NCBI GenBank assembly: GCA_008933615.1
Contig: WBUR01000021.1
Coordinates: forward strand, 1-64,000
Direction of reading: 5' to 3'
Source: a bacterium
Lineage (GTDB): Bacteria > CLD3 > SB21
DNA: 64,000 nt
Positions 51,151-63,798 of the stretch are shown piece after piece. Each line of letters opens with the position of its first letter. Within the stretch, counting starts at the first letter, position 1. Made by a program: the position numbers and the translations under genes. Under the pieces are notes generated by a model. The model was given only the letters and a program-made list of their open reading frames with translations, searched no databases and was not told the DNA's origin.

Positions 51151-52434
51151 TTAATAATATACCCTCATCCACAATTCGACACGCTCCTTCATCTGCTTAT
51201 CTCCATACTCCGTCTGACCTCCGCCGACGAGTATGCTTGGCCAAAAAATGAATTCTACGTTCGTAACAGGCTTGTAATTCACTTGTAACGAGAGAAGATA
51301 ACTCTTGTCAGACAGATTGTAAATCGTGTATAGAGACGGGGTGAAGTAAAGCCAGTCAAAAGGCTCGGGATATGTTAGTTTGACGTACAGATAATCCAGC
51401 ATCAGTGTACCGGTTCTAAAGTATGTTTGACTGATACTAAGCGCCTGCTGCGCTGCTAAGAAACTACTATTATCGGCGCTCTTTTGTAAAAAATCGATAT
51501 ATTGTTTGTACTCGTGTCTTTTCAATCCAAGACCGTTATGATAATATTCAGCAATAAGGGTAATATTGAAGGCGTTTAAGTAGCGAACGCCAAACAGATA
51601 TGAGAATTTATCGGCACGTCGAATATTAATGGAATCGTTAAAAATTGTATACCGCGGTGCATCCATGTTGAGGCCTAGCTCACCGTGAATTTCAAAGTTC
51701 TCCCTGACGTTCCGGGCAAAATCCAATCCGTATCTTTTCGTTTCATTTTTACTATAATAAGTCATCAGGTCAATGTCTGTGTCCCATAACAAAAAATACG
51801 TTTTCAACGCAAGATCCGTTTTCTTAAACTCGCCGTATCGGCTATTCGGGATCTCTGAGGAAGGGATCACAGCAAACGTCAGAGCGAAACTCTGCAAGGC
51901 TTCGGATGACAAACTTTTTATGTACTCGACATTGGCCGAAAGCAGTCCTGCTTGTGCAAGTTCCGGGTTTTCAGCGTCTTTCACCGGATTGACAAATCCG
52001 ACGGGATTGAACGCGTAGCCCTTTCCCCAATTGTAGGTGCGCTTTCCCGCCTGCAATGTTGTATTGAAGGATGGATTGTAGCTGCCGTACGCCTCAAACA
52101 AATCAAATCGCATATCGGCATCGTTGTAATAGGTTGCGTGTGTTTTCAAATGAAAGCCGATATCTTTCGTGCGATAGTCGGCATTGAGATAAGGCTCTAA
52201 CCTGTACTGCGAGAGCAATGATGATGACGGACGCTCTTTCAGGAATTGAAGTTTGTATAGCGCCGAGCTTTGGTCCATGTGAAACAGCGTGTATTTCACA
52301 TCGAGGTTGCCGCTCCAGTCAAGTTTTTTTTCATCTTGAGTTTCGGCCGGCGCTCCAGTCGTCTCGACTTGCCCAAACGCAACACCCCATGACACGAAGA
52401 CCAAAATAGATATAAATTTTCCAGCAAGTCGCAT
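51151..52434 (-). CDS. Outer-membrane beta-barrel protein
   Basis: 427 aa. A signal peptide (KFISILVFVSWGVAFGQVE) leads to many alternating short strands and a final Tyr (MRVYY), as in barrel proteins recognised by BAM. The domain looks DUF1302-like, but I am not certain. It overlaps the stop of the LolA-like gene by one base and is the last gene of the Lol-type cassette. Confidence 0.82.
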   Translation of the reverse strand: MRLAGKFISILVFVSWGVAFGQVETTGAPAETQDEKKLDWSGNLDVKYTLFHMDQSSALYKLQFLKERPSSSLLSQYRLEPYLNADYRTKDIGFHLKTHATYYNDADMRFDLFEAYGSYNPSFNTTLQAGKRTYNWGKGYAFNPVGFVNPVKDAENPELAQAGLLSANVEYIKSLSSEALQSFALTFAVIPSSEIPNSRYGEFKKTDLALKTYFLLWDTDIDLMTYYSKNETKRYGLDFARNVRENFEIHGELGLNMDAPRYTIFNDSINIRRADKFSYLFGVRYLNAFNITLIAEYYHNGLGLKRHEYKQYIDFLQKSADNSSFLAAQQALSISQTYFRTGTLMLDYLYVKLTYPEPFDWLYFTPSLYTIYNLSDKSYLLSLQVNYKPVTNVEFIFWPSILVGGGQTEYGDKQMKERVELWMRVYY

Positions 52435-53153
52435 TATTTTAGATCTCCTAACCGCCCCATGTAATTCAGCGTGAACACTTCATCGGGGAATTGCCGTTTT
52501 TTGATGGTTTGATAAATCATCAAGGAACGATACCCTTTGTATAGAGGACTGTATGTTTCGATTACGGAAGGCCGTGTCAATCCGCCTCCAAAATTTTTGT
52601 CATCTTTGAACTCGAGTGTTTTAATAAGCATGCCGCTGGCCGAATACGCTTCAACTTTACGAAGTATTTTCTTGTCTTTCGTAATCCACATCTTCAGTTT
52701 GTCGTACGCAACCGTTTTGTTCTTCGCCTTCAAATCGAGAATGAACTCATAATCCGTTCCTTCCGCATAAGCCGCGTCGTACTCCTCAGAATACTCCAAC
52801 TGCATAAGGTCCGCATTGTTGAAAACGCCGCCAACAACGGACTGCAAACTTGTAATGCGTATGGGTTTGTTTACGCTCGGGACGTAAAGCCACATATTCT
52901 CCCCCAAGCGAAGCGTTGCCCTTCCTTTTTCACTCGCAGGGAGTAGATAGAGCATCGCAATCTTATCCTTTCCTTTCTTTATCGTGTAGAACGTGAACTC
53001 TTTCTTCGATCCGTTTGGCTCTTCGTTGATAAGTTTGCGGTTAGCCTCATAGGATTCCGGCATGAGATTGTCGTCAACATCCTTTAAGAGGCTGTTGGCG
53101 TCTTGCGCTGAAAGAGTATATGAGAAAAGCGCCATGATAATTAGTTTTTTCAT
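52434..53153 (-). CDS. LolA-like outer-membrane lipoprotein-sorting protein
   Basis: 239 aa, signal peptide then a half-barrel LolA-like domain (COG2834). It starts after the signal with DANSLLKDVDDNLMPESYEANRKLIN; LGENMWLYVPSVNKPIRI and a FKDDKNFGGG end are typical of the family. Co-located with an FtsX-type permease and LolD-like ATPase, it should accept hydrophobic substrate from the inner membrane and pass it to the barrel. The real cargo may be lipid or lipoprotein. Confidence 0.87.
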   Translation of the reverse strand: MKKLIIMALFSYTLSAQDANSLLKDVDDNLMPESYEANRKLINEEPNGSKKEFTFYTIKKGKDKIAMLYLLPASEKGRATLRLGENMWLYVPSVNKPIRITSLQSVVGGVFNNADLMQLEYSEEYDAAYAEGTDYEFILDLKAKNKTVAYDKLKMWITKDKKILRKVEAYSASGMLIKTLEFKDDKNFGGGLTRPSVIETYSPLYKGYRSLMIYQTIKKRQFPDEVFTLNYMGRLGDLK

Positions 53154-53193
53154 AAAACTCTCGTTTCTTTCATATTAAAAGTAGTGATTTATC

Positions 53194-54426
53194 TTACACA
53201 TGTCCTAACGCATCCACCGGTTCCATTTTCGACGCCTTATACGCGGGTTGGAATCCTGCGAAGAGCGACACGAGCATGACGATAACCGCAAGCCAAACAA
53301 TTTCGCCTGTAGGGATACTCGGCGCGAGAGACACATTCATCTGACCAAACGTGAAATCAATCTTCGTTATGTTCATCACCCATAACATGACGAGTCCGAC
53401 AACTATGCCCGCAATCGTGCTAAGCAATCCCATAGCAAATCCTTCGATCAGAAAAAGAGAAAGAATCCGCCGGGGCGGCGTTCCGATTGCCGCGATGGTC
53501 CCGATTTCACTGATTCTCTCGTACACTGACATCGTCATAATGTTGAGAATGCTAACCAGAACAATGGTAATCAAAATGAATTTCACAACAAAGATCAGAA
53601 GGTCAACGATACGTGCAATACTGGCAAACGGTGAAAGTTGTTCCCATGTGTGCACTTCAAATAAGGCATCCGGCGCGGCGGATTCTTTTTTCAGCTGCAA
53701 AGAAACCGCGCTAAGTTTATCGAACTTATGTAAATGAATCGCAATTTCAACAACCTCCGGCTGATCCATTCGCAGAAGCGTCTGTGCGTCCTGGATGTGT
53801 ATGTAGCCATCCTTGCCGGACGGACCGAAGACGCTCTCCGTTACCGCAGCAATACGCAGCGTTACGGCGTTAACCGAGCTTTCCTTATTCGTTGCGACAA
53901 GAACAATTTCATCTCCCGTCTTCAGCGAAAGCCCTTTCATGAGATTTTCCGGAACCAAGATTTCTCCCGGTTTTAGAAATTGGTCGGGATCCGGTACGTC
54001 TCCTTTGATACGTTTTACGAACCCTGACACAGTGCGGTTTTCCATTTCCGGATAAACAGCGCTCAAGCGAATGTTGGATGTCTGAGCGTAGTTACTGATC
54101 ATCGCGCCGAATTTAATCCGCGGACTGTATGCCGCTATTTCAGGCATGTTTTTCAGCATCTTTTCGATCTTCGCCAACTCCGCTCCTGAGAGAATGAGGT
54201 TGAGGGGCTGATTATCAATAGATTCCACATACCCTTTTACGTGTATTTGCAGATCGCCCATCACTGTGTTTGTCAATACGCCAACCATTTGTGATTTGAA
54301 GGAAATGGCCAAACCACCGAAGACCACCACGAGAATCACTCCAAACGCAATAAGCGATGTAGTCAAGAGCGTTCGTCGTTTGTTACGAAACAAATTTCGG
54401 AGCGCAATTATGATCAGATTCTTCAT
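53194..54426 (-). CDS. FtsX/LolC-type ABC transporter permease
   Basis: 410 aa. One N-terminal helix (about 20-45), a large periplasmic domain (about 50-270) and three C-terminal helices; the MacB_PCD/FtsX domain LRNLFRNKRRTLLTTSL and ISEIGTIAAIGTPPRRI are conserved. It acts with the adjacent LolD-like ATPase in mechanotransmission-type export or extraction of membrane substrates. Gap to the ATPase is 3 nt. Confidence 0.91.
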   Translation of the reverse strand: MKNLIIIALRNLFRNKRRTLLTTSLIAFGVILVVVFGGLAISFKSQMVGVLTNTVMGDLQIHVKGYVESIDNQPLNLILSGAELAKIEKMLKNMPEIAAYSPRIKFGAMISNYAQTSNIRLSAVYPEMENRTVSGFVKRIKGDVPDPDQFLKPGEILVPENLMKGLSLKTGDEIVLVATNKESSVNAVTLRIAAVTESVFGPSGKDGYIHIQDAQTLLRMDQPEVVEIAIHLHKFDKLSAVSLQLKKESAAPDALFEVHTWEQLSPFASIARIVDLLIFVVKFILITIVLVSILNIMTMSVYERISEIGTIAAIGTPPRRILSLFLIEGFAMGLLSTIAGIVVGLVMLWVMNITKIDFTFGQMNVSLAPSIPTGEIVWLAVIVMLVSLFAGFQPAYKASKMEPVDALGHV

Positions 54427-54429
54427 AGT

Positions 54430-55125
54430 TCATCCCGCCTTTCTGTTTTCCGTGTTGACGATGCTTCCGTCTTCCAAAGTGTAAAGAATTTCTGCTTCTC
54501 CGACAATTTTAGGGTCATGAGTTGAAAAGATGAACGTGGTGCCGTATTCGCTCGTCATCTCGTGCATGATGCTTATAACTTTAAACGCGGTGGTATGATC
54601 GAGGTTAGCGGTGGGTTCATCGGCAAGTACAATTTGCGGATTCGTTACTAATGCGCGAGCCACCGCCACACGTTGCTTTTGACCGCCGGAAATTTTGTTC
54701 GGATATTTGTCTTTTTGATCGGTCATGCCTACTTTTTCCAGCAGTCGCAGCACACGATCACGGCGCTCCTTTAAAGGAAGCCGGTCGAGCATAAGGAGAG
54801 GATACTCGACGTTCTCATATACCGTCAGAACCGGAATGAGATTGAAATTCTGGAAAACAAACCCAATGGTTTTTCCGCGAAACGCCGCCGCTTCGGCGCG
54901 GCTGAACAATCCTACGTCGACACCGTTCACAAACACTTTTCCTTCCGAAGGCTTATCCAGACAGCCGATGAGATTCAGCAGGGTAGACTTTCCGCTTCCT
55001 GATGGGCCGATAAACGACACAAACGTTCCCTTCAGGATTTCTACATTTATCTCCTTCAATGCATGAACAGGAATTTCTCCCGTTTGGTAGACCTTCCTCA
55101 CGTTTTCCAGACGAATCAAACTCAT
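54430..55125 (-). CDS. LolD/MacB-type ABC ATPase
   Basis: 231 aa. Walker A GPSGSGKSTLLNLIGCLD, signature ISGGQKQRVAVARAL, Walker B IVLADEPTANLD and the H-loop FSTHDPKI. Drives the FtsX-type permease that follows. It begins the Lol-like cassette, separated by about 107 nt from the TPR gene upstream, so a promoter may lie there. Confidence 0.94.
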   Translation of the reverse strand: MSLIRLENVRKVYQTGEIPVHALKEINVEILKGTFVSFIGPSGSGKSTLLNLIGCLDKPSEGKVFVNGVDVGLFSRAEAAAFRGKTIGFVFQNFNLIPVLTVYENVEYPLLMLDRLPLKERRDRVLRLLEKVGMTDQKDKYPNKISGGQKQRVAVARALVTNPQIVLADEPTANLDHTTAFKVISIMHEMTSEYGTTFIFSTHDPKIVGEAEILYTLEDGSIVNTENRKAG

Positions 55126-55232: not shown

Positions 55233-55856
55233 TCACTTGATTAATTTCAAACCCTCCAATGCCGATTTGTCATCCGGGCTATACATCAAGACCTTATTGA
55301 AAAGAACTTTTGACTCACGGGTTTTTTGTAATTTAAGCTTATTCCAGGCAAGCAAAAGCACTGAGTCGTAGTCGAAAGGATAGAGATTCACAACCTTTTC
55401 GATAAAACCATCTGCCTTTTCGTAATTTTCCCGGCCATAATAAATGAGTCCTAATCGATAATTGGCAATTGTATTTTGGGGATCGATCGCAAGAATTTTA
55501 TTGTAAAGGTCAATCACTTCCTCCCATTTTCCCTGCGCAGAAGCGGGGTAAGTCATGCCAAATCGCGCTTCAATGGCATAAGGTTTTAATGAGATAGCTT
55601 TACTATAAAAGCCGATGGATTCGTTGAACTGTCCACCGAGGTAATTCAGCCAACCAAGCCGAAGATTCATTTCATAAGAGTCAGCCTGATACACCGCTTT
55701 GATTTGATCAATGGCTTTGATGTAATTTCCGCTTTTCTCTAATACATAGTTTTCTCTAAACGCCTTGATTACTTCGTCCTGTCCAAACAAAGAAATAGGG
55801 AATAGAACAAACAAAATAATCGTCCATAGATTTGTGTGCTTTTTCAATAGTTCCAT
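55233..55856 (-). CDS. Exported TPR protein
   Basis: 207 aa. A signal peptide (LWTIILFVLFPISLFGQ) and about five tetratricopeptide repeats (e.g. GQFNESIGFYSKAISLKPYAIEARFGM, NTIANYRLGLIYYGRENYEKA). Likely a periplasmic scaffold for protein or substrate interactions. It overlaps the barrel gene by 13 nt, so it belongs to that cluster. Confidence 0.87.
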   Translation of the reverse strand: MELLKKHTNLWTIILFVLFPISLFGQDEVIKAFRENYVLEKSGNYIKAIDQIKAVYQADSYEMNLRLGWLNYLGGQFNESIGFYSKAISLKPYAIEARFGMTYPASAQGKWEEVIDLYNKILAIDPQNTIANYRLGLIYYGRENYEKADGFIEKVVNLYPFDYDSVLLLAWNKLKLQKTRESKVLFNKVLMYSPDDKSALEGLKLIK

Positions 55857-57181
55857 ATAATGCCTCCAGTAATTGAATGGTTAGTGTATTGAATAGTATT
55901 ATAAATATTATGATCAGGCAATGCCGGAATAAATGAACTTTCATATGCAAGCATCGAATAATCAAACCTAATTTTAAATGCCGGCTTTAGCGGAAGTATC
56001 AGTCGCCCACCATAACGTCGTTTGATAATATCAGTACCATTGTAAACGACAAATCCATCGTTGCGCAAAAAGTTATGCATGTCGCCGAGGCTTCCATATC
56101 CTTCAATCCATATCCGGCTTGTCAATTTAAAGCCCATGAGCTGGTCAAAAATTAATCTGTTTTGAGACCTATCGCCGGAATTTGTTTCAGATTGATAGGA
56201 TACCGTTGAAACAGTATACAAATTTAAATTTCCCAAAGGATATAACGTAAGTAAAAAGTCACCCTGGATCTGCCGGGCATTATTCAATCCTGCATAATAA
56301 AAGGATGCACCCAAGGTAAAATAGCTGAAGTTTCTATAGATGGATACAAAACTTACGATATCATTTTCCGAAAATGTTTGGGTAGTAATCCGATTCTGCC
56401 CTTGCCTGAAATCCGTAACTTCAACAGGATATCGGATATTAATGTAATGTAGCCCCAAAAGCATATTTAATCCTTTTGCCAAGCGGGCATTTCCCGATAA
56501 ATAGTACTGGTGCAAAGATGTTTTATAGTCAGGATTGGAAGAGAAAATGCCGCCTTGTTGTGAGTATACAAAAGAGGTTTTGGCGATATAACTATAAGCG
56601 TGAAATATTGAAATTTTTGGATTCAAACTATGCTTTAAGCTTAGATTGAAATAATGATGCCCTTTTGAAATATATTGTGCCCCGTTTTTTTGCGAATCAA
56701 TATTGATAGAATATTTATTCGTCACGGATGGATTTGCGATAAAACCTGAATTGTAAGTAAAATCCAATTGATCTATTAAATTATTTTCTTTGATTCCGAT
56801 TTTTTCTTTCAATTGCCATGAGAATGTAGCCGCTAAAATTTCAGCTTCCGTTTGACGGCCTGAATATAAGTAAGAATAATACAAGTATTCTTTCAGAAAG
56901 GTTTCAACCGAGTTAACGGCATACGCTTTTTCGAAATGACGAATGGATTGATGATAATTTTGTTTCTCAAAATACGCTATCCCCATGCGTACTCTCAAAT
57001 AATAAAAATCGATTCCGTGGTCAAGCGACTTTTTCCCTTCGATAATCAACTTATCCCATTCTTTTTCTAACCAAAGAGAATACGTTATTTTATCTACTGT
57101 AGCCATATTCACGACTTCTTGCGAAGCGCCGTTGTAAGCTGAAAACAGTATTAAAAAGAATACCCCTAGTCGTTTATACAT
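55844..57181 (-). CDS. TPR plus outer-membrane beta-barrel protein (YaiO-like)
   Basis: 445 aa. Signal peptide, then N-terminal TPR-like helices (about 30-140; YYLRVRMGIAYFEKQNYHQSIRHFEKAYAV), then a C-terminal beta-barrel of roughly 16 strands (about 155-445), ending in a Trp-Asn-Tyr. The composition fits YaiO-family outer membrane proteins. It overlaps the UT-M23 gene by 16 nt and the TPR gene by 13 nt, forming a coupled trio. A role in moving the product across the outer membrane is a working hypothesis. Confidence 0.78.
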   Translation of the reverse strand: MYKRLGVFFLILFSAYNGASQEVVNMATVDKITYSLWLEKEWDKLIIEGKKSLDHGIDFYYLRVRMGIAYFEKQNYHQSIRHFEKAYAVNSVETFLKEYLYYSYLYSGRQTEAEILAATFSWQLKEKIGIKENNLIDQLDFTYNSGFIANPSVTNKYSINIDSQKNGAQYISKGHHYFNLSLKHSLNPKISIFHAYSYIAKTSFVYSQQGGIFSSNPDYKTSLHQYYLSGNARLAKGLNMLLGLHYINIRYPVEVTDFRQGQNRITTQTFSENDIVSFVSIYRNFSYFTLGASFYYAGLNNARQIQGDFLLTLYPLGNLNLYTVSTVSYQSETNSGDRSQNRLIFDQLMGFKLTSRIWIEGYGSLGDMHNFLRNDGFVVYNGTDIIKRRYGGRLILPLKPAFKIRFDYSMLAYESSFIPALPDHNIYNTIQYTNHSITGGIIWNY

Positions 57182-59361
57182 ATAGCTCGTATGTTAATTT
57201 GATTGGTTTGTATCTCGAACTCTTTTATACCTCTCTTGTCGACGTAGAAAAAAAAACTTATTTCTTTGCTTTTCTTACCGAAAACTTTTGTTGTTGTTTT
57301 TGAATTTAGTACAAGCCGCGTATCTGATAAGGCGTCATGTGAACCGGCATAAGTTAAGCTGAATTCTCCACTCTTATAGCGAAAAAAAGGCGCGACGAAA
57401 TCCTGTAAAACGAGGTTTTTTGGGTTGAATACCATATTGAGGGGATAAGCGTCATGCAGAACAAATTCTTTATTAAAACCTAAACAAACCTTGTACGCCG
57501 CCAAATAAAAATAATACAGTAATGATCTTCTATCGCCTTCAAAATGGATAAAGTGCATCATCGCATCGTCTATTTTGAAATACGCCTTAGACTTTGATTT
57601 CTCACATTCAATATACTTATTTAAAAAGTAATCGATTTTGACCTCCCAATCGGCTTCATGTTCTGCGCTGTCGATTACATTAAATTTTATCTTTTCTCCA
57701 GGAATAAAGAAAAAAGCTCTTCGCAATGAAGGATTCACTTGTATATTTGAAATCGTTTGATTCTTTTCTGGGGTGGCAACTGTTTTTAATTCCACATTTT
57801 TAGATGTTTTAAGAAAATAATTGCTTATTGGATAGTCTATCGTTTTAGACCCTATATAGGGCGTTGCCTGCACCTGAAAGTGCAAATGCGGATAAGGCGA
57901 ATTACCTGAATTACCGCATTTGCCGAGTAAATCGCCTTTTTTTACCTTATCGCCAGACGTTACCTGTACGGTACCCTGCTTGAGGTGGCTTAGTTTTGTA
58001 TATAAGTATTCGGCGTGCTTAATAATAATTGTATTTCCCCAGTTATTCTCAAGATTTTTTTCACCAATCATGTTGTCTTGAATATCGTCCACTACTTCCT
58101 CAATAGTACCGTCGGCGGGAGCAATAATGTTTTTGTTGTAACAATAATAGTCTTCCGTGTAGTCGCCTTCATTTTTGTAGGTCTTTCCTGCGTCATCTGC
58201 CATTTCAAAATCCCAGGCGTGTCGCCATCCGTTTTTATGAGTATATTCCCCATTATGTCCCTGTGTTATGACCCATTCGCCAAAAAAAGGCAAAAAAATA
58301 GAAACAGGGCTTTCTTTGCCAAAACGTTCTGTATGATTGATGAATGAATAAAGATTTTTCTCGGGTGAATTTTGCTGTATAAACAGAGTGTTCAATTTTG
58401 CGTTGTTATGCACCCTGAATTTAAGTGCGTATAAAAACAATAAGGTAACAATATTGAAAGGTAAGGAATAAATCGGCAGATGATACAATGCTAAAACGGA
58501 GCTTAGGCTTATAGTAAGAATAGCAACCATCGGTATAAGAAGTATAACCGCTAAATACGAGTTGCGATTCGGTATGATGAAGTATCCGCCAATGGCAATA
58601 GCCGATAAAATATAATTGAACCCGATGTAGCTATAGCCGACTTCAGTAAAACGCGCGCCGATAAGTAAGTAGAATAAGTATGCAATGTAAAAACCAATTA
58701 AAGAGAGGATAAACCCTATTCTGGAATAAACCAGTAAGCCTATTGCTACCAAAACACCAGCAAAAACACTATGCTGAAAAAGAATTGCCCCTAAAGATAA
58801 AAAATATCCTTTTAATGAAACCGGTATTGGAATACTGTTCCACCATTCGTATAAATCGACAAACAAACTTCCGCCAATAGTATATAGATCATTTAAAGTG
58901 TAAATTTGCCTCTCATTCAGCCCCAGAGCCTGAAATTCACGGGATGCAAGTGTCAATGCCCACAATGACAATACGAAGGGAACACTTAAGTATGGTAGAC
59001 CATATTTGCCGATAATGCCTTCAAGCGCAACTGAAAAAAACAGCGTCAATACCGCTGCAAGCAATACTAATAAGAGAAGCAAGATTCCGGGTTGAAAATA
59101 AACCCCTAAACCCAGACCTACGAGCAATGAGTTAAACCCATAATAGCCCTGTCGTATTCTAAATTTATCAAAACCAATCCAAAGGGCCGTAGCATTGCTA
59201 ATTAATACCGAAAACAATCCGAATAAGCCCGTATAAAAATCAACAAAGGTTACCAGCAAAAGAATGCTTGCAAAAACTTTATTGTCCGAAAAAAAAACCT
59301 GAGAATAACTGTTTAATATACCCTGCAAATACCATTTCAGACTGCTCATAGACTTCAACAT
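57166..59361 (-). CDS. Urea transporter-M23 peptidase fusion
   Basis: 731 aa. Residues about 10-312 form ten-helix urea transporter (UT family) repeats with paired LPxxxxPF motifs (GLPYLSVPF near 121-129, HLPIYSLPF near 294-302). A linker follows to about 355. Then comes a LytM/M23 metallopeptidase-like domain: a first zinc site read as His381-x-x-Asp384 in RHAWDFE, a His459 in SHL, and HLHFQ with His492/His494. The canonical motif is HxxxD, so the spacing is one short. C-terminal residues about 540-731 are a novel domain rich in aromatic and charged residues. The protein could move a small amide while the peptidase domain cuts peptide or peptidoglycan. Topology of the C-terminus is unresolved. 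Confidence 0.85.
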   Translation of the reverse strand: MLKSMSSLKWYLQGILNSYSQVFFSDNKVFASILLLVTFVDFYTGLFGLFSVLISNATALWIGFDKFRIRQGYYGFNSLLVGLGLGVYFQPGILLLLLVLLAAVLTLFFSVALEGIIGKYGLPYLSVPFVLSLWALTLASREFQALGLNERQIYTLNDLYTIGGSLFVDLYEWWNSIPIPVSLKGYFLSLGAILFQHSVFAGVLVAIGLLVYSRIGFILSLIGFYIAYLFYLLIGARFTEVGYSYIGFNYILSAIAIGGYFIIPNRNSYLAVILLIPMVAILTISLSSVLALYHLPIYSLPFNIVTLLFLYALKFRVHNNAKLNTLFIQQNSPEKNLYSFINHTERFGKESPVSIFLPFFGEWVITQGHNGEYTHKNGWRHAWDFEMADDAGKTYKNEGDYTEDYYCYNKNIIAPADGTIEEVVDDIQDNMIGEKNLENNWGNTIIIKHAEYLYTKLSHLKQGTVQVTSGDKVKKGDLLGKCGNSGNSPYPHLHFQVQATPYIGSKTIDYPISNYFLKTSKNVELKTVATPEKNQTISNIQVNPSLRRAFFFIPGEKIKFNVIDSAEHEADWEVKIDYFLNKYIECEKSKSKAYFKIDDAMMHFIHFEGDRRSLLYYFYLAAYKVCLGFNKEFVLHDAYPLNMVFNPKNLVLQDFVAPFFRYKSGEFSLTYAGSHDALSDTRLVLNSKTTTKVFGKKSKEISFFFYVDKRGIKEFEIQTNQINIRAICIND

Positions 59362-59399
59362 GTTGTTTTTACAAAACTGCTCAATACATAATTTGTTCC

Positions 59400-59461
59400 A
59401 GCAGATTTCGCAGATTCAGTCAGCTATTTTTATCCGCGTAAATTAGCGCGATCTGCGTGAG
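59400..59461. repeat. Degenerate intergenic repeat
   Basis: A GCAGATT unit is repeated at 59401 and 59411, followed by CCGCGTAAATTAGCGCGA, a sequence type common as short dispersed elements in FCB genomes. No second copy was found in the window, so this is suggestive only. Confidence 0.3.
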
Positions 59462-59585
59462 ATAAATTCATAGTTTATATGTAACTACTCAGTATTAGAA
59501 ATTTTATGTCCCATGAAGCCGTGAGGGATCCATAACAAAACGCATGCCTTCTTAGCGGGAATCAAAGAATTGTTGTTTAGTTACA

Positions 59586-60944
59586 TTACAGGCTAAGTTT
59601 TTTTAAATGTTCCGGAAATTGTTCCAACATGTTCATGCTTTCAAGGGTTTCATTGTTTTTGATAACATGCGGATTTCCTTTGGTATCAATCATTACAACA
59701 TTGGGTCTTAGCGTAATAAATTGCAGCCATTGGGTATTGTTATAAGCCCCTATGCGCCTGATAATATAATGATCACCTTTTTTGAGCAAAGGGAAAAGTA
59801 CGCTGCCGCGAATTACGTCAATATTCATACAAAGGGGTCCGTATATAGTTGTATCTTCAGACTGATCGGAAGTGGGTTGCGCCGGACGTATATCATGTTC
59901 GTACCAAAATGAAGTGAATAAAAAGTTTACTCCTGCATCAATTATTGTTGCGCGCCGGCCATCAGCAAGCCGCTTATTGGCAACTACGGTACCCAGAATA
60001 TAGCCGGCATCGTCGATAAGCGCCCGTCCCGTTTCCAGTATTAGCAGCGGCAGGTTATCGGGCTTAATTTCCGATTTCATGAAGGCCGATGTAATGGCTT
60101 CGGCAAATTCGTCGAATGAGGGCGCAGTATCGCTTCCGGGGTAATAGGCTCCTTTCAGTGTATTTTTCGATGCAAATCCCCCGCCCAAATCAATGTACTT
60201 GATTGTGTGTTTATGCTTTCGTTCAATCCCGATAGCCAAATCAGCCAGTTTGGATGCAGCGATGCGATAAGCATCGGTACTCATCATATAGGTTCCAATG
60301 TGGGTATGCAAACCAAGCAGTTCGATTTTTTTACTAACCATAATTCGGTTTAACGCATCCCATGCCTCGCCGTTTTCATAATTAAAACCAAAGCGATCCC
60401 ATTGTGGATAAATGCCGGTATCCATATTTACACGAATGGCAACTTTAGGCTTCTTTTCTAATTTATCTGCCAGTGCGATTATGTCATACAGCTCATCGAA
60501 ATGATCGATATGTATAAGCGATCCATTGTTAATAGCTTTAGCCAGATCCTCAGTTGTTTTATAGGGCCCGTTAAAAATTATGTTGTTTCCAGGAACTCCG
60601 TTCGCAATGGCTTTGTCGTATTCAAAACCGGAGACCACTTCAGCCCACGATCCTTCCTGATGGAATACCTTGCAGACCGCATTCAGGTAGTTCGTCTTGT
60701 ACGACCATGCAAATTGAACTTTCGGATAACGTGACGCGAATGCCCTGTAAGCTTCTTTATAGGTTTTTCGAATAGTTGATTCAGAAAAAACATAAACCGG
60801 TGACCCAAATTCTTCAATCAGCGTCTTTACAGGAATACCATCAATGTGTGTGATCGGTTCTACACGGCTTTTGATGCCGAATTTACTTGGTAATCCCGCG
60901 TTTATTTTCTGAATTAGCGGCCGTTCAAACGGAAGTTTTTCCAT
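59586..60944 (-). CDS. PLP-dependent decarboxylase (DAP/ornithine decarboxylase-like)
   Basis: 452 aa, fold type III. The PLP lysine is Lys83 in WSYKTNYL. GLHTHIG is at 211-217, the phosphate-binding DLGGGF at 252-257 and ETGR at 304-307. The C-terminal YGPLCMNIDV carries the active-site Cys. It most resembles diaminopimelate/ornithine/arginine decarboxylases but with EPGR altered to ETGR, so the substrate may differ. It likely makes an amine or D-amino acid-type compound used with the adjacent ATP-grasp ligase. GGAG precedes the ATG and 8 nt separate it from the ATP-grasp gene. Confidence 0.87.
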   Translation of the reverse strand: MEKLPFERPLIQKINAGLPSKFGIKSRVEPITHIDGIPVKTLIEEFGSPVYVFSESTIRKTYKEAYRAFASRYPKVQFAWSYKTNYLNAVCKVFHQEGSWAEVVSGFEYDKAIANGVPGNNIIFNGPYKTTEDLAKAINNGSLIHIDHFDELYDIIALADKLEKKPKVAIRVNMDTGIYPQWDRFGFNYENGEAWDALNRIMVSKKIELLGLHTHIGTYMMSTDAYRIAASKLADLAIGIERKHKHTIKYIDLGGGFASKNTLKGAYYPGSDTAPSFDEFAEAITSAFMKSEIKPDNLPLLILETGRALIDDAGYILGTVVANKRLADGRRATIIDAGVNFLFTSFWYEHDIRPAQPTSDQSEDTTIYGPLCMNIDVIRGSVLFPLLKKGDHYIIRRIGAYNNTQWLQFITLRPNVVMIDTKGNPHVIKNNETLESMNMLEQFPEHLKKLSL

Positions 60945-60952
60945 GGTTGTTT

Positions 60953-61999
60953 TTACAACTCCCCTTTTGTTGATAATTGTTCAAATTCATCGAGATTACA
61001 AATCATATCGTACGAATAGCGAATGAACATTTTGCCGATATCGTAGCCAGTATAAGGTTTTACTTCATTGCCAAGAGCTAGATTAACCAATGCTTCAGGC
61101 AAATTTTGTCCGGCTCCTGTTGCGAGATAAACCCATGCAGGCAAGCGAGGGTTTATCTCGATAAGATATAGTTCGTTTTTCAATGTTCTGATCAATTCCA
61201 GTTCCATACCGCCCCGCCACTGTGTTGCGCCGATAATCCTATGCGTCAGATCAAGCATGCTCTTATCGTCGAGTGTAATGCCGCCCCATGCTTTCCCTTT
61301 ATCGGTGATATACTGCTTCCGCATAGGCACCGCACCAACAGTGTTTCCTTTACCATCGCCCAAAGCCACGACATTTACTTCAGTGCCTTTTACAAATTGC
61401 TGAACAATTATGGGCAAGCCCCATTTGGCGGATATTTTGTCAAAATACATTTTCCCCTGTTCTGCATTATAGGCAATATACGCATCGTAAAATTTGCCCT
61501 TGACTACAACAGGGTAGTCAAAATCTTCCGTGAGATCATTGATGTCAACTGGGCTGGTAATGGCTTTGCTGAAAGGTACCTTTACATCGTATTTCCTGCC
61601 AAATTCAGGCAGGTTACTTTTTTGCCGTTCCTCAAATTGCTTGCGAGTTGGCAGAAAAGTGCTGATTCCTATTGATTTTAGTTTGGGAGCTGATTTCATA
61701 AACGCATGAAGCTCTGAATCAAAATTCGGTATTAGAACATCAACCTTTTCAATCGCCTGTATGTGCCCTATTCGTTCGATTACGGCTTCTATGCCATCCG
61801 AAGGGTATGGAACCTTATAGGTTTTATCTACCAAATCGTGCATATACGCACCGGGCTCAAGATTCTCGTAGGCTAAACCAATAATTCGCGACTCTAAAGA
61901 AAATGATTCGCGAATGCTGCGAATCACAGGAATGCCTGGACCCGGACTGTCAATATTATTCAAGCCCGAAACAGCGATAGTTATCTTCGTTTTATTCAT
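60953..61999 (-). CDS. ATP-grasp ligase
   Basis: 348 aa from ATG 61999. The N-terminal domain VSGLNNIDSPGPGIPVIRSI is like pre-ATP-grasp folds, followed by the ATP-grasp B-domain (DYPVVVKGKFYDAYIAYN) and the metal-binding ELELIRTLKNELYLIEINPRLPAW. This pattern is close to carbamoyl-phosphate synthase-type ATP-grasp enzymes that join a carboxylate to an amine. An in-frame TTG (62008) upstream is less likely. The start lies within the last codons of the PqqD-like gene (8-nt overlap), so the two proteins are coupled and perhaps physically associated. Confidence 0.88.
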   Translation of the reverse strand: MNKTKITIAVSGLNNIDSPGPGIPVIRSIRESFSLESRIIGLAYENLEPGAYMHDLVDKTYKVPYPSDGIEAVIERIGHIQAIEKVDVLIPNFDSELHAFMKSAPKLKSIGISTFLPTRKQFEERQKSNLPEFGRKYDVKVPFSKAITSPVDINDLTEDFDYPVVVKGKFYDAYIAYNAEQGKMYFDKISAKWGLPIIVQQFVKGTEVNVVALGDGKGNTVGAVPMRKQYITDKGKAWGGITLDDKSMLDLTHRIIGATQWRGGMELELIRTLKNELYLIEINPRLPAWVYLATGAGQNLPEALVNLALGNEVKPYTGYDIGKMFIRYSYDMICNLDEFEQLSTKGEL

Positions 62000-62240
62000 G
62001 TTCTTCAACTAACTGCATTTGTTTCAGCGTGGACAAGAAATCAATAAAATACCGCTCGAACGAATTTTGATCAACGTCGTATTTCGATATGATCAAACCG
62101 GTTATTTCATTCTGATTTTTACCTTGTTTTATCAATTCCAATATCTCCTGTCCAACAGGATTAAGAGAAAAGGAATCGCCTGTTGTTGGGTCAAAAACAA
62201 AACCCGACTCGCTTATTGCAACATTCTTCTTTAGGATCAT
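61992..62240 (-). CDS. PqqD-family protein (RiPP-recognition-like)
   Basis: 82 aa. The core VFDPTTGDSFSLNPVGQEILELI is a PqqD-like winged helix, and FIDFLSTLKQMQLVE is the C-terminal helix. PqqD and related RRE domains deliver peptide substrates to modifying enzymes. No precursor peptide is evident beside it. Gene overlap with the ATP-grasp suggests the PqqD-like protein presents the acceptor, possibly a peptide or protein. AAGGATAA site upstream. Confidence 0.85.
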   Translation of the reverse strand: MILKKNVAISESGFVFDPTTGDSFSLNPVGQEILELIKQGKNQNEITGLIISKYDVDQNSFERYFIDFLSTLKQMQLVEEHE

Positions 62241-62274: not shown

Positions 62275-62733
62275 TTAACGCCGACGCCAACCGCTCCAGG
62301 CAGGAAATCCGTTATCGTCTCTGAGTTTCAACGTATCGTCGCCTCTTTTCAGTTCCGCAGTGATAATAACCGGCTTGCCGTCAATGGTTACACGCGAACC
62401 CTTAACCTCGACCTTATCGTTTTTTGAAAGATCAATATCCTGATTGTCGATGTACCACGCCGGCCCGAGATGAACGGAGATCTGTTCTTTGTCCGTTTTT
62501 ATCATAAGGTGAATACCGTTTGACATTCCTTTCAAAGGCGTGATGGTATCAATTTCCATGATTGTTCCGCTTAGCGTTTCCACGGTCTTAGTATCGTACA
62601 GCCTGTGATAATTTCCTTTATGTCCCCAGCCGCCGCTGCCTCGGAATTTCCACCAACCCTGTGAATAAACGGATGAAGATAAAACTGTCAATAACAAAAA
62701 CGCTGAAATTGAAAAAAACAAACTTGATTTCAT
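62275..62733 (-). CDS. Small exported protein, beta-rich, unknown function
   Basis: 152 aa from ATG 62733, behind GGAGGATGTC; a TTG 4 codons upstream falls in the ribosome site. Signal peptide (MKSSLFFSISAFLLLTVLSS), then a Trp/Gly-rich segment (GWWKFRGSGGWGHKG). A beta domain with ETLSGTIMEIDTITPLKGMSNGIHL and VKGSRVTIDGKPVIITAELKRG looks OB-like. It ends in the aromatic NGFPAWSGWRRR. The family appears conserved in FCB and other anaerobes, but I know no function. Its stop lies 34 nt ahead of the PqqD-like gene. Confidence 0.8.
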   Translation of the reverse strand: MKSSLFFSISAFLLLTVLSSSVYSQGWWKFRGSGGWGHKGNYHRLYDTKTVETLSGTIMEIDTITPLKGMSNGIHLMIKTDKEQISVHLGPAWYIDNQDIDLSKNDKVEVKGSRVTIDGKPVIITAELKRGDDTLKLRDDNGFPAWSGWRRR

Positions 62734-62816
62734 GACATCCTCCAATTAAAAGTGATAAGTTTATTATATAACCATATTAGTATATAGTCACTAAAGAAAA
62801 CATAAGAAAATGGTTT

Positions 62817-63290
62817 TTATTCCTCTATTTCTTTTCTTTGCTCCCATTCGACGTAATCCAAGAACATTTGCGCATGTTCTTTATGGATTCGCAAATGATC
62901 TTCTTTCATTTCCTTATGATACTTTTGCATGCGAGCATGGTCAGATAGAATGGTCTTATCGTCCATACCAAGTATTAGATGGCGATTCTCTAACTGTATA
63001 TGGGCTTTGGCGATATGAGCATGCTTTTCGCGTATTGCAACATGGCCCTTTTCAATTTCCTGATGTATATCCATCATGGATAAAAAATACTTATCCTGGC
63101 TTACATTAACAAGCTTCGAGTAAACATCGACGGCTTTCTCTTGTTCATGGTTTAGGGAGTCATCCATAACAATCATTCTGGCGCACTCCGCCCTCAAGTG
63201 TTCATGCTCTTCCCAAAACTTACGTTTGTCCACTCCGGAACACGATGATATGGCAAAAATTAATAAGATGGCAATCAACAGAGTTTTCAT
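62817..63290 (-). CDS. His-rich helical lipoprotein
   Basis: 157 aa. Lipobox SSC (Cys17) after a signal peptide. The body is helical with many His/Glu/Lys: HEHLRAE, EKGHVAIREKHAHIAKAHIQLENRHL, DHARMQKYHKEMKEDHLRIHKEHAQ. It may bind metal or act as a coiled-coil scaffold. Its promoter has a palindromic -35 region, so it is probably regulated. It is 83 nt upstream of the next exported protein. Confidence 0.82.
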   Translation of the reverse strand: MKTLLIAILLIFAISSCSGVDKRKFWEEHEHLRAECARMIVMDDSLNHEQEKAVDVYSKLVNVSQDKYFLSMMDIHQEIEKGHVAIREKHAHIAKAHIQLENRHLILGMDDKTILSDHARMQKYHKEMKEDHLRIHKEHAQMFLDYVEWEQRKEIEE

Positions 63291-63344: not shown

Positions 63345-63798
63345 AATATTTTATTCGCCACGTTCATCAAGCCTACACGCCAATCTCTACACATCTTTGT
63401 GAACTGCAAATATCACGCCCAACGCTAATTAATTGTATTTTGTGCATTATTTCACATGGTCAACGAGAATTGACGGGTTTATCGTCGACGAGATTATAGC
63501 CATACTTAACCATTTCTTGTTTGAATCTTAAAGATCAACAGATCTTCCCCATACAATGACCACTTGTGATTTCTAATAAAAGAGCTATTTTTACTTCAAT
63601 CAGAAAAATTAGATATAAAAATAAACAAAAAAATAAGGCCATTCATGGCGGATAACACAATAATCTTCTCAATGGTTGGCGTCGGCAAGATCCACAAACC
63701 AAACAAACAGGTTCTCAAAGACATTTATTTATATTTTTGTTCAAACAAAGATCCTATTGTTTGTTTAAACGTTGAGTGTCTTTAGGTTACGTCAAGCG
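63345..63798. other. Intergenic region, no recognised gene
   Basis: About 450 bp between the His-rich lipoprotein and the partial DUF2141 gene. AT-rich; weak short repeats of AAACAAA-type appear near 63700-63770. No RNA gene, array or convincing coding ORF is seen. Confidence 0.4.

Follow-up and report, generated by a model that had tools for sequence, protein, structure and literature searches.

Two described pathways frame the genes reported here. Rhizoferrin biosynthesis (FigC/FslC) follows a conjugate-then-decarboxylate logic, and in butirosin biosynthesis (BtrJ/BtrK/BtrI) the ATP-grasp ligase BtrJ acts before an enzyme of the alanine-racemase (AR) fold decarboxylates the attached residue. 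We analyzed a 64,000-nucleotide stretch of bacterial DNA (contig WBUR01000021.1; hereafter the window) in which six consecutive minus-strand genes encode a PqqD-like protein, an ATP-grasp ligase, a pyridoxal 5'-phosphate (PLP) decarboxylase, a urea transporter (UT)-fold protein fused to an M23 peptidase (UT-M23), a TPR-barrel protein, and a TPR protein. Our overall reading of this cassette, which we hold to be about evenly balanced between right and wrong, is that these genes form an operon, complete in itself and probably moving horizontally, that makes and handles one small molecule.

The cassette shares with FigC/FslC a Cys-Met loop, the Thr and Tyr of the specificity helix and, probably, the conjugate-then-decarboxylate logic, but it has no nonribosomal peptide synthetase (NRPS)-independent siderophore (NIS) synthetase, and its ligase is instead an ATP-grasp protein with a PqqD neighbor. 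It resembles the butirosin system in the predicted ATP-grasp ligation followed by AR-fold decarboxylation, and differs from it in having PqqD, a predicted recognition element (RRE) of the kind known from ribosomally synthesized and post-translationally modified peptides (RiPPs), rather than an acyl carrier protein, and in carrying envelope genes within the operon. In sequence profile, and hence in predicted fold, the PqqD-like protein is close to PqqD and to the lasso-peptide RREs TbiB1 and TfuB1, whereas no precursor peptide, radical S-adenosylmethionine enzyme, or lasso cyclase lies nearby. The UT domain has the fold and both LPxxSxPF-type signature repeats of urea transporters (dvUT, UT-A/UT-B) but is fused to the M23 domain and a C-terminal domain, and the Glu in the second half of its pore is replaced. 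Finally, the barrel protein joins N-terminal TPRs to an outer-membrane barrel as do the exporters PgaA, BcsC, and Slam; unlike them, it is 14-stranded without a family match to SlamB or PgaA, and a PgaA-type barrel appeared only at rank 50 of its fold search.

The six genes are inherited as one unit

We retrieved 80 GTDB loci with the ATP-grasp protein and scored adjacency only where the contig was long enough for each gene. On this count PqqD adjoined the ATP-grasp gene in 76/76, the decarboxylase stood at its cassette place in 68 of 70, UT-M23 (52/55) and the barrel gene (47/52) were adjacent, and the TPR gene closed the cassette in 45 of 51. Three loci without UT-M23 nearby (L066, L082, and L089) have it elsewhere in the same genome. 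In an evenly drawn sample of 297 Bacteroidota genomes, the ATP-grasp protein was present in 27 (~9%); full-length UT-M23 occurred in the same 27, each time beside the ATP-grasp gene, and in 0/270 of the others. Relatives also kept the gene overlaps (median junctions of −14 nucleotides (nt) for PqqD/ATP-grasp and −13 nt for both UT-M23/barrel and barrel/TPR). Across 44 complete loci, the pairwise distances of the six proteins were correlated (r 0.49–0.88, a range to which genome relatedness contributes), and 0 of 999 permutations reached these values. The genes flanking the cassette mostly vary between genomes. We conclude, on strong evidence, that the six genes form one co-inherited unit, and the preliminary description of the window, which had proposed that the set is a system and would co-occur elsewhere, was borne out on both counts. 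Thus, the idea that these are neighboring genes without a functional relationship, suggested by a family mix unlike any described pathway, is already refuted by the linkage, overlaps, and co-divergence, and we give it almost no weight.

The location and strand of the six open reading frames (ORFs) were as first described (Table 1), as were the overlaps of 8 nt (PqqD/ATP-grasp, counted from the ATG at 61999), 16 nt (UT-M23/barrel), and 13 nt (barrel/TPR) and the 8-nt gap between the ATP-grasp and decarboxylase genes. Pfam supported the domains claimed for PqqD, ATP-grasp, both the N- and C-terminal parts of the Orn/DAP/Arg decarboxylase, UT plus M23, and the TPRs. Absent from that description was the 224-nt gap between the decarboxylase and UT-M23 genes, where the median in relatives is 21 nt. 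The dispersed repeat in this gap is particular to the window's genome and lies outside the conserved cassette.

Named hosts include Cyclobacterium, Algoriphagus, Aquiflexum, and Thermaurantimonas, and other records are labeled Balneolaceae, Marinimicrobia, Kapabacterium, Chlorobiota, and Victivallaceae; the hosts are aquatic and sediment bacteria, in which the genes are almost always together. A diverged version, with an ATP-grasp protein 36–47% identical, was found in seven more genomes; in six of these the genes for PqqD, ATP-grasp, decarboxylase, and UT-M23 remain side by side, and L036 has the first three. We found no published description of the operon, and no paper combining these genes, in open-access text, outside which many subscription papers lie, although the operon occurs in the 27 sampled Bacteroidota and diverged versions extend well beyond that sample.

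The cassette is present in the window's genome. Among the relatives searched, two genomes of the same genus and four of the same family lack it, and the two same-class genomes have the diverged version only. Other named genomes, mostly Bacteroidota, hold versions 64–79% identical to that of the window. This distribution and these identities suggest that it was acquired horizontally. Plasmid searches returned only distant relatives (ATP-grasp 23–28% and decarboxylase ~26–32% identical).

Table 1. Positions of the cassette genes in the window, of the repeat-bearing gap, and of a gene that overlaps PqqD in other loci
Feature	Position	Strand	Match or model
PqqD-like small protein, predicted RRE fold, 82 aa	61992..62240	minus	PF05402 39.5 bits
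ATP-grasp amide ligase (predicted), 351 aa from TTG 62008; conserved ATG 61999	60953..62008	minus	PF15632/PF02655
PLP decarboxylase, alanine-racemase fold, FigC/FslC-like, 452 aa	59586..60944	minus	PF02784/PF00278
Gap, 224 nt, dispersed short repeat	59362..59585	no strand	14 other genome matches
UT-fold membrane domain + M23 + C-terminal beta-rich domain, 731 aa	57166..59361	minus	PF03253, PF01551
Signal-peptide-like N-terminus + TPR helices + 14-strand outer-membrane barrel, 445 aa	55844..57181	minus	AlphaFold
Secreted TPR protein, 207 aa	55233..55856	minus	TPR_2 1.7e-17
DUF4405 membrane protein gene (five loci)	L060 7090-7923; L091 9142-10005; L102 9154-10008; L111 2382-3251; L034 10681-11508		

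The decarboxylase resembles FigC rather than LysA

The best PDB profile match of the decarboxylase was FigC (7KH2; 312 bits versus 237 bits for the best LysA), which is also its closest solved relative (30% identity over 399 aa); the BtrK structures 7ru7 and 2j66 were among the other matches. FigC accommodates a conjugated substrate by means of M355, next to the catalytic Cys, and of T327, T330, and Y331 on the specificity helix, whereas LysA and its relatives have Arg or Asp on this helix and an acidic residue after the Cys (PMC7857480). We found that T345 of the cassette enzyme corresponds to T327, Y348 to Y331, and M373 (of C372-M373) to M355, while T330 is replaced by W347 and H357, the proposed citrate contact, by I375, so that three of these five FigC pocket residues are kept. 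The DAP-binding residues of LysA are likewise replaced (Arg by Thr and the acidic residue by Met). By score, the enzyme fell below the cut-offs both of NCBIfam NF041039 (FslC/FigC; 230 versus 500 bits) and of TIGR01048 (LysA; 208 versus 297.9 bits), and a separate LysA on another contig of the genome exceeded the latter (347.9 bits). We therefore ruled out LysA and housekeeping lysine synthesis.

Because the pocket resembles that of FigC, which takes an already conjugated substrate, the decarboxylase probably acts after ligation and not before it, so that the order put forward in the preliminary description, amine synthesis and then ligation, is probably reversed. Neither H357 nor T330 is kept, and for this reason the substrate, although conjugated in this prediction, is probably not citryl. 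Rhizoferrin proper was ruled out, as the genome has no NIS synthetase and the citrate-contact residue differs.

The PqqD-like protein, its ligase, and the case for a peptide substrate

The PqqD-like protein belongs to the PqqD family by profile (PF05402; 39.5 bits versus a cut-off of 23.4 bits), and it also exceeded the cut-off of TIGR04353 (HPr-rel-A system; 37.3 versus 35 bits). HprK-related kinase A (TIGR04352) had no match in the genome, and the control for this search likewise matched in no genome. Since the sequence profile aligns with structures of lasso-peptide RREs (5v1u/6jx3, TbiB1 and TfuB1; E 5.9e-11 for TbiB1), the predicted fold is that of an RRE, the property on which the originally proposed system had been made to depend. 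The ATP-grasp protein matched the families ATPgrasp_Ter and ATP-grasp_3, and K170, E271, E284, and N286 are invariant across 20 sequences, so the expected metal and ATP residues are kept. Its nearest solved structures are the carbamoyl-phosphate synthase (CPS) large chain and 2pn1, and there was no RimK/MvdD-type (graspetide) ligase among its Pfam and PDB profile matches, which makes it CPS/PylC-like in type.

These properties bear on an alternative that we consider unlikely but credible, namely, that the cassette performs RRE-guided peptide chemistry. PqqD would present the tail of a ribosomal peptide or protein, the ATP-grasp enzyme would append an amino acid, the decarboxylase would trim this added residue, and a protease (M23 or a different one) would free the product, the whole resembling carrier-peptide aminoacylation. 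The RRE match and the TIGR04353 score fit such a scheme, as does a PqqD gene that overlaps or adjoins the ATP-grasp gene, and some enzymes of the AR fold are known to decarboxylate residues attached to a carrier or peptide (BtrK, MccE) (PMC7857480). However, no conserved precursor ORF of 18–140 aa within 2.5 kb was found in at least three loci at E<1e-4, in a search that recovered spiked 35-aa pieces in 40 loci. The ligase type and the PqqD C-terminus speak against the scheme as well; the latter is not conserved, which ruled out a LysW-like carrier role. The earlier statement that there is no obvious precursor peptide was thus upheld with a working control, and we do not classify the locus as a RiPP or graspetide cluster, there being neither a conserved precursor ORF nearby nor a RimK/MvdD-type ligase. 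Of the idea of a peptide conjugate as first proposed, the RRE match is the part that stands, with nothing else in its favor.

A CRP/FNR-type operator sequence is shared with sulfane-sulfur genes in Cyclobacteriaceae

A CRP/FNR-type palindrome (TGAY-N4-RTCA) lies 5' of PqqD in Cyclobacteriaceae and Thermaurantimonas (13/86 upstreams), nearly always at −72 to −81. The stricter form GTGAY-N4-RTCAY was found in 11 of 86 upstreams compared with a mean of 0.08 and a maximum of 2 in shuffles, a test that overstates independence because the palindrome-bearing loci are related to one another. Searching nine genomes with a stricter pattern gave 21 sites versus 4 for the reversed control. Seven of the 21 are cassette promoters by position, 5 lie 77–83 nt before a metallo-β-lactamase (MBL)-fold/double-rhodanese (persulfide-dioxygenase-like) protein, and further sites precede genes for YgaP-like membrane proteins. 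Of the 11 distinct sites in Algoriphagus sp. CAU 1675, 4 belong to the cassette (one site) and to a single sulfur gene cluster (three promoters) that includes YeeE/YedE-type Sulf_transp and SoxA/TsdA-type cytochrome genes. MBL-rhodanese genes flank the cassette itself in L048 and L055. Thus, one CRP/FNR-type operator sequence recurs at the cassette and at sulfane-sulfur genes of Cyclobacteriaceae, and the predicted operators suggest a small sulfane-sulfur regulon in this family. An operator common to the cassette and persulfide/thiosulfate genes indicates a condition under which to seek the product. Such operators are seen before several promoters of an MBL-rhodanese, YeeE/YedE, and SoxA/TsdA gene cluster in the Cyclobacteriaceae loci L154, L157, and L158.

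The window itself has neither this palindrome nor an AraC gene. Outside the palindrome group, 26 loci encode, at about −2, an AraC protein whose N-terminus is HMA-like, and some cassette upstreams contain AraC-type direct repeats of ATTTTRTAAC, 21 bp apart; this likely AraC operator showed no clear regulon beyond the cassette. Rfam matched no RNA element or riboswitch across 128 kb of cassette loci. We rejected a metal-sensing role for the HMA-like AraC protein because its cysteines are not conserved, and a copper-linked reading of the whole cassette was demoted to a rival because the sulfur genes gave the stronger regulatory signal.

A more specific form of our favored reading, with a probability that we place as low as that of peptide chemistry, is a metallophore: a metal ligand, released from the cell, whose synthesis would follow that of rhizoferrin except that the ATP-grasp enzyme replaces the NIS synthetase. 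The decarboxylase is closest to a siderophore enzyme, the AraC genes and spaced repeats fit, DUF2202 proteins, in which a ferritin-like motif can be seen by eye, are repeatedly encoded near the cassette, and the sulfur operator would be in keeping with the reduced supply of metals in the presence of sulfide. Countering these, an IucA/IucC synthetase (PF04183) was not found in the genome (the control matched in two genomes), TonB receptors of no one family are found repeatedly next to the cassette, and neither the HMA-like cysteines nor the proposed citrate-contact residue is conserved.

The envelope proteins include a UT fold with a replaced pore residue

UT-M23 scored 222 bits for UT (PF03253; cut-off 25) and 58.7 bits for M23 (PF01551), and its model (pLDDT, the predicted local distance difference test score, 87.9) comprises a UT domain and an M23 domain and ends in an additional C-terminal domain rich in beta structure; the target-normalized template modeling (TM) score of the UT domain to dvUT (3me1) is 0.85. 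The M23 zinc ligands and catalytic His (H375, D384, H459, H492, and H494) are kept in 20/20 aligned sequences, diverged ones included. In the same number of aligned sequences, the second-half pore Glu position, which we map to E187 of dvUT, is Ala, Ser, or Leu. Because the Glu is replaced in every sequence, the solute of the UT domain may be other than urea. The TPR-barrel protein has almost no sequence match, but its AlphaFold model (pLDDT 91.8) shows TPR helices followed by 14 long strands, in line with the TPR plus beta-barrel architecture first described; Foldseek related it to FadL, porins, and PgaA-type barrels at the fold level only (query-normalized TM ~0.44 at best). The envelope end of the cassette is thus supported by a modeled 14-strand outer-membrane barrel and a modeled UT fold that matches dvUT.

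M23 enzymes are usually peptidoglycan endopeptidases, and the fully retained catalytic ligands would suit a cell-wall system in which the enzymes modify a peptide containing diaminopimelate and UT-M23 acts on peptidoglycan or its fragments. The AR-fold clade of FigC shares an ancestor with DAP decarboxylase (PMC7857480), which fits too. Nevertheless, the residues with which LysA binds DAP are replaced, the sulfur-gene link is not predicted by such a system, and no other cell-wall gene family recurs nearby. We regard it as improbable, more so than either peptide chemistry or a metallophore.

A model for the operon

Returning to an operon that makes and handles one small molecule, we propose a scheme in which we infer the product, the direction of transport, and any role in sulfur or metal handling. 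First, going by the families, the ATP-grasp enzyme, aided by the PqqD/RRE protein, would join a carboxylate to an amino acid through an amide bond. Second, judging from its pocket residues, the FigC-like PLP enzyme would decarboxylate the amide-linked amino acid to give an amine-ended conjugate. Third, the UT-fold protein would carry this product, or a compound related to it, through the inner membrane, and in the periplasm the fused M23 domain would act on the wall or on the product. Fourth, to judge by their architecture, the TPR-barrel and TPR proteins would provide the outer-membrane route. Our guess is that the product is most likely used where sulfide is present or metals are scarce, perhaps acting as a ligand or as an acceptor of sulfur.

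Several observations weigh against this scheme. Normally, a UT fold lets through nothing but very small, uncharged solutes. The sulfur operator is confined to Cyclobacteriaceae and one relative and is missing from the window, and the 26 loci with AraC fall outside the palindrome group. The lack of a recurrent TonB receptor and the Trp and Ile in place of T330 and H357 of FigC count in the same direction.

If the scheme is correct, the pathway combines an ATP-grasp ligase with an RRE domain and a decarboxylase of siderophore type and uses no NRPS or NIS synthetase, and a urea-channel fold has been recruited for a different solute and fused to a wall peptidase. A broader proposal, which we put forward tentatively and think more likely wrong than the operon reading itself, is a widespread class of pathways in which RRE/PqqD-assisted ATP-grasp ligases and FigC-like decarboxylases make a new family of metabolites that are handled by a repurposed urea-channel/peptidase fusion and a dedicated outer-membrane barrel in a sulfane-sulfur response. 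An anti-phage defense system was rejected, as none of the six proteins had a PADLOC match.

Neighboring genes

A gene for a DUF4405 membrane protein overlaps PqqD in five loci (and ATP-grasp too in four), spanning near and diverged versions (Table 1). A second PqqD-domain ORF is present in the genome (G000:C14:45380-45541; L002, L132). Closely after the TPR gene, two Cyclobacteriaceae loci encode a small protein whose CxxCH motif is haem-like (L050 16653-17135 and L051 16636-17118), the L050 copy of which has no Pfam match.

Directly upstream of PqqD, positions 62275-62745 (minus) encode a secreted protein of 156 aa that is not at this place in relatives and matches MamS weakly (24.9 bits versus a cut-off of 200). 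Just upstream of the cassette, 62817-63290 (minus) encodes a histidine-rich, lipoprotein-like protein of 157 aa without a Pfam match. The contig has two copies of the first ~30 codons of an EttA-like ABC-F gene, at 63645-63740 (plus) and at G000:C21 about 65897 (L120 10898); the window copy reads on to an end in another frame and so resembles a partial duplication. Downstream on the same strand (51151-55125, minus), there are genes for a LolD-like ABC ATPase, a permease, and two secreted proteins, of which the 239-aa protein is LolA-like by eye and the 427-aa protein is beta-rich.

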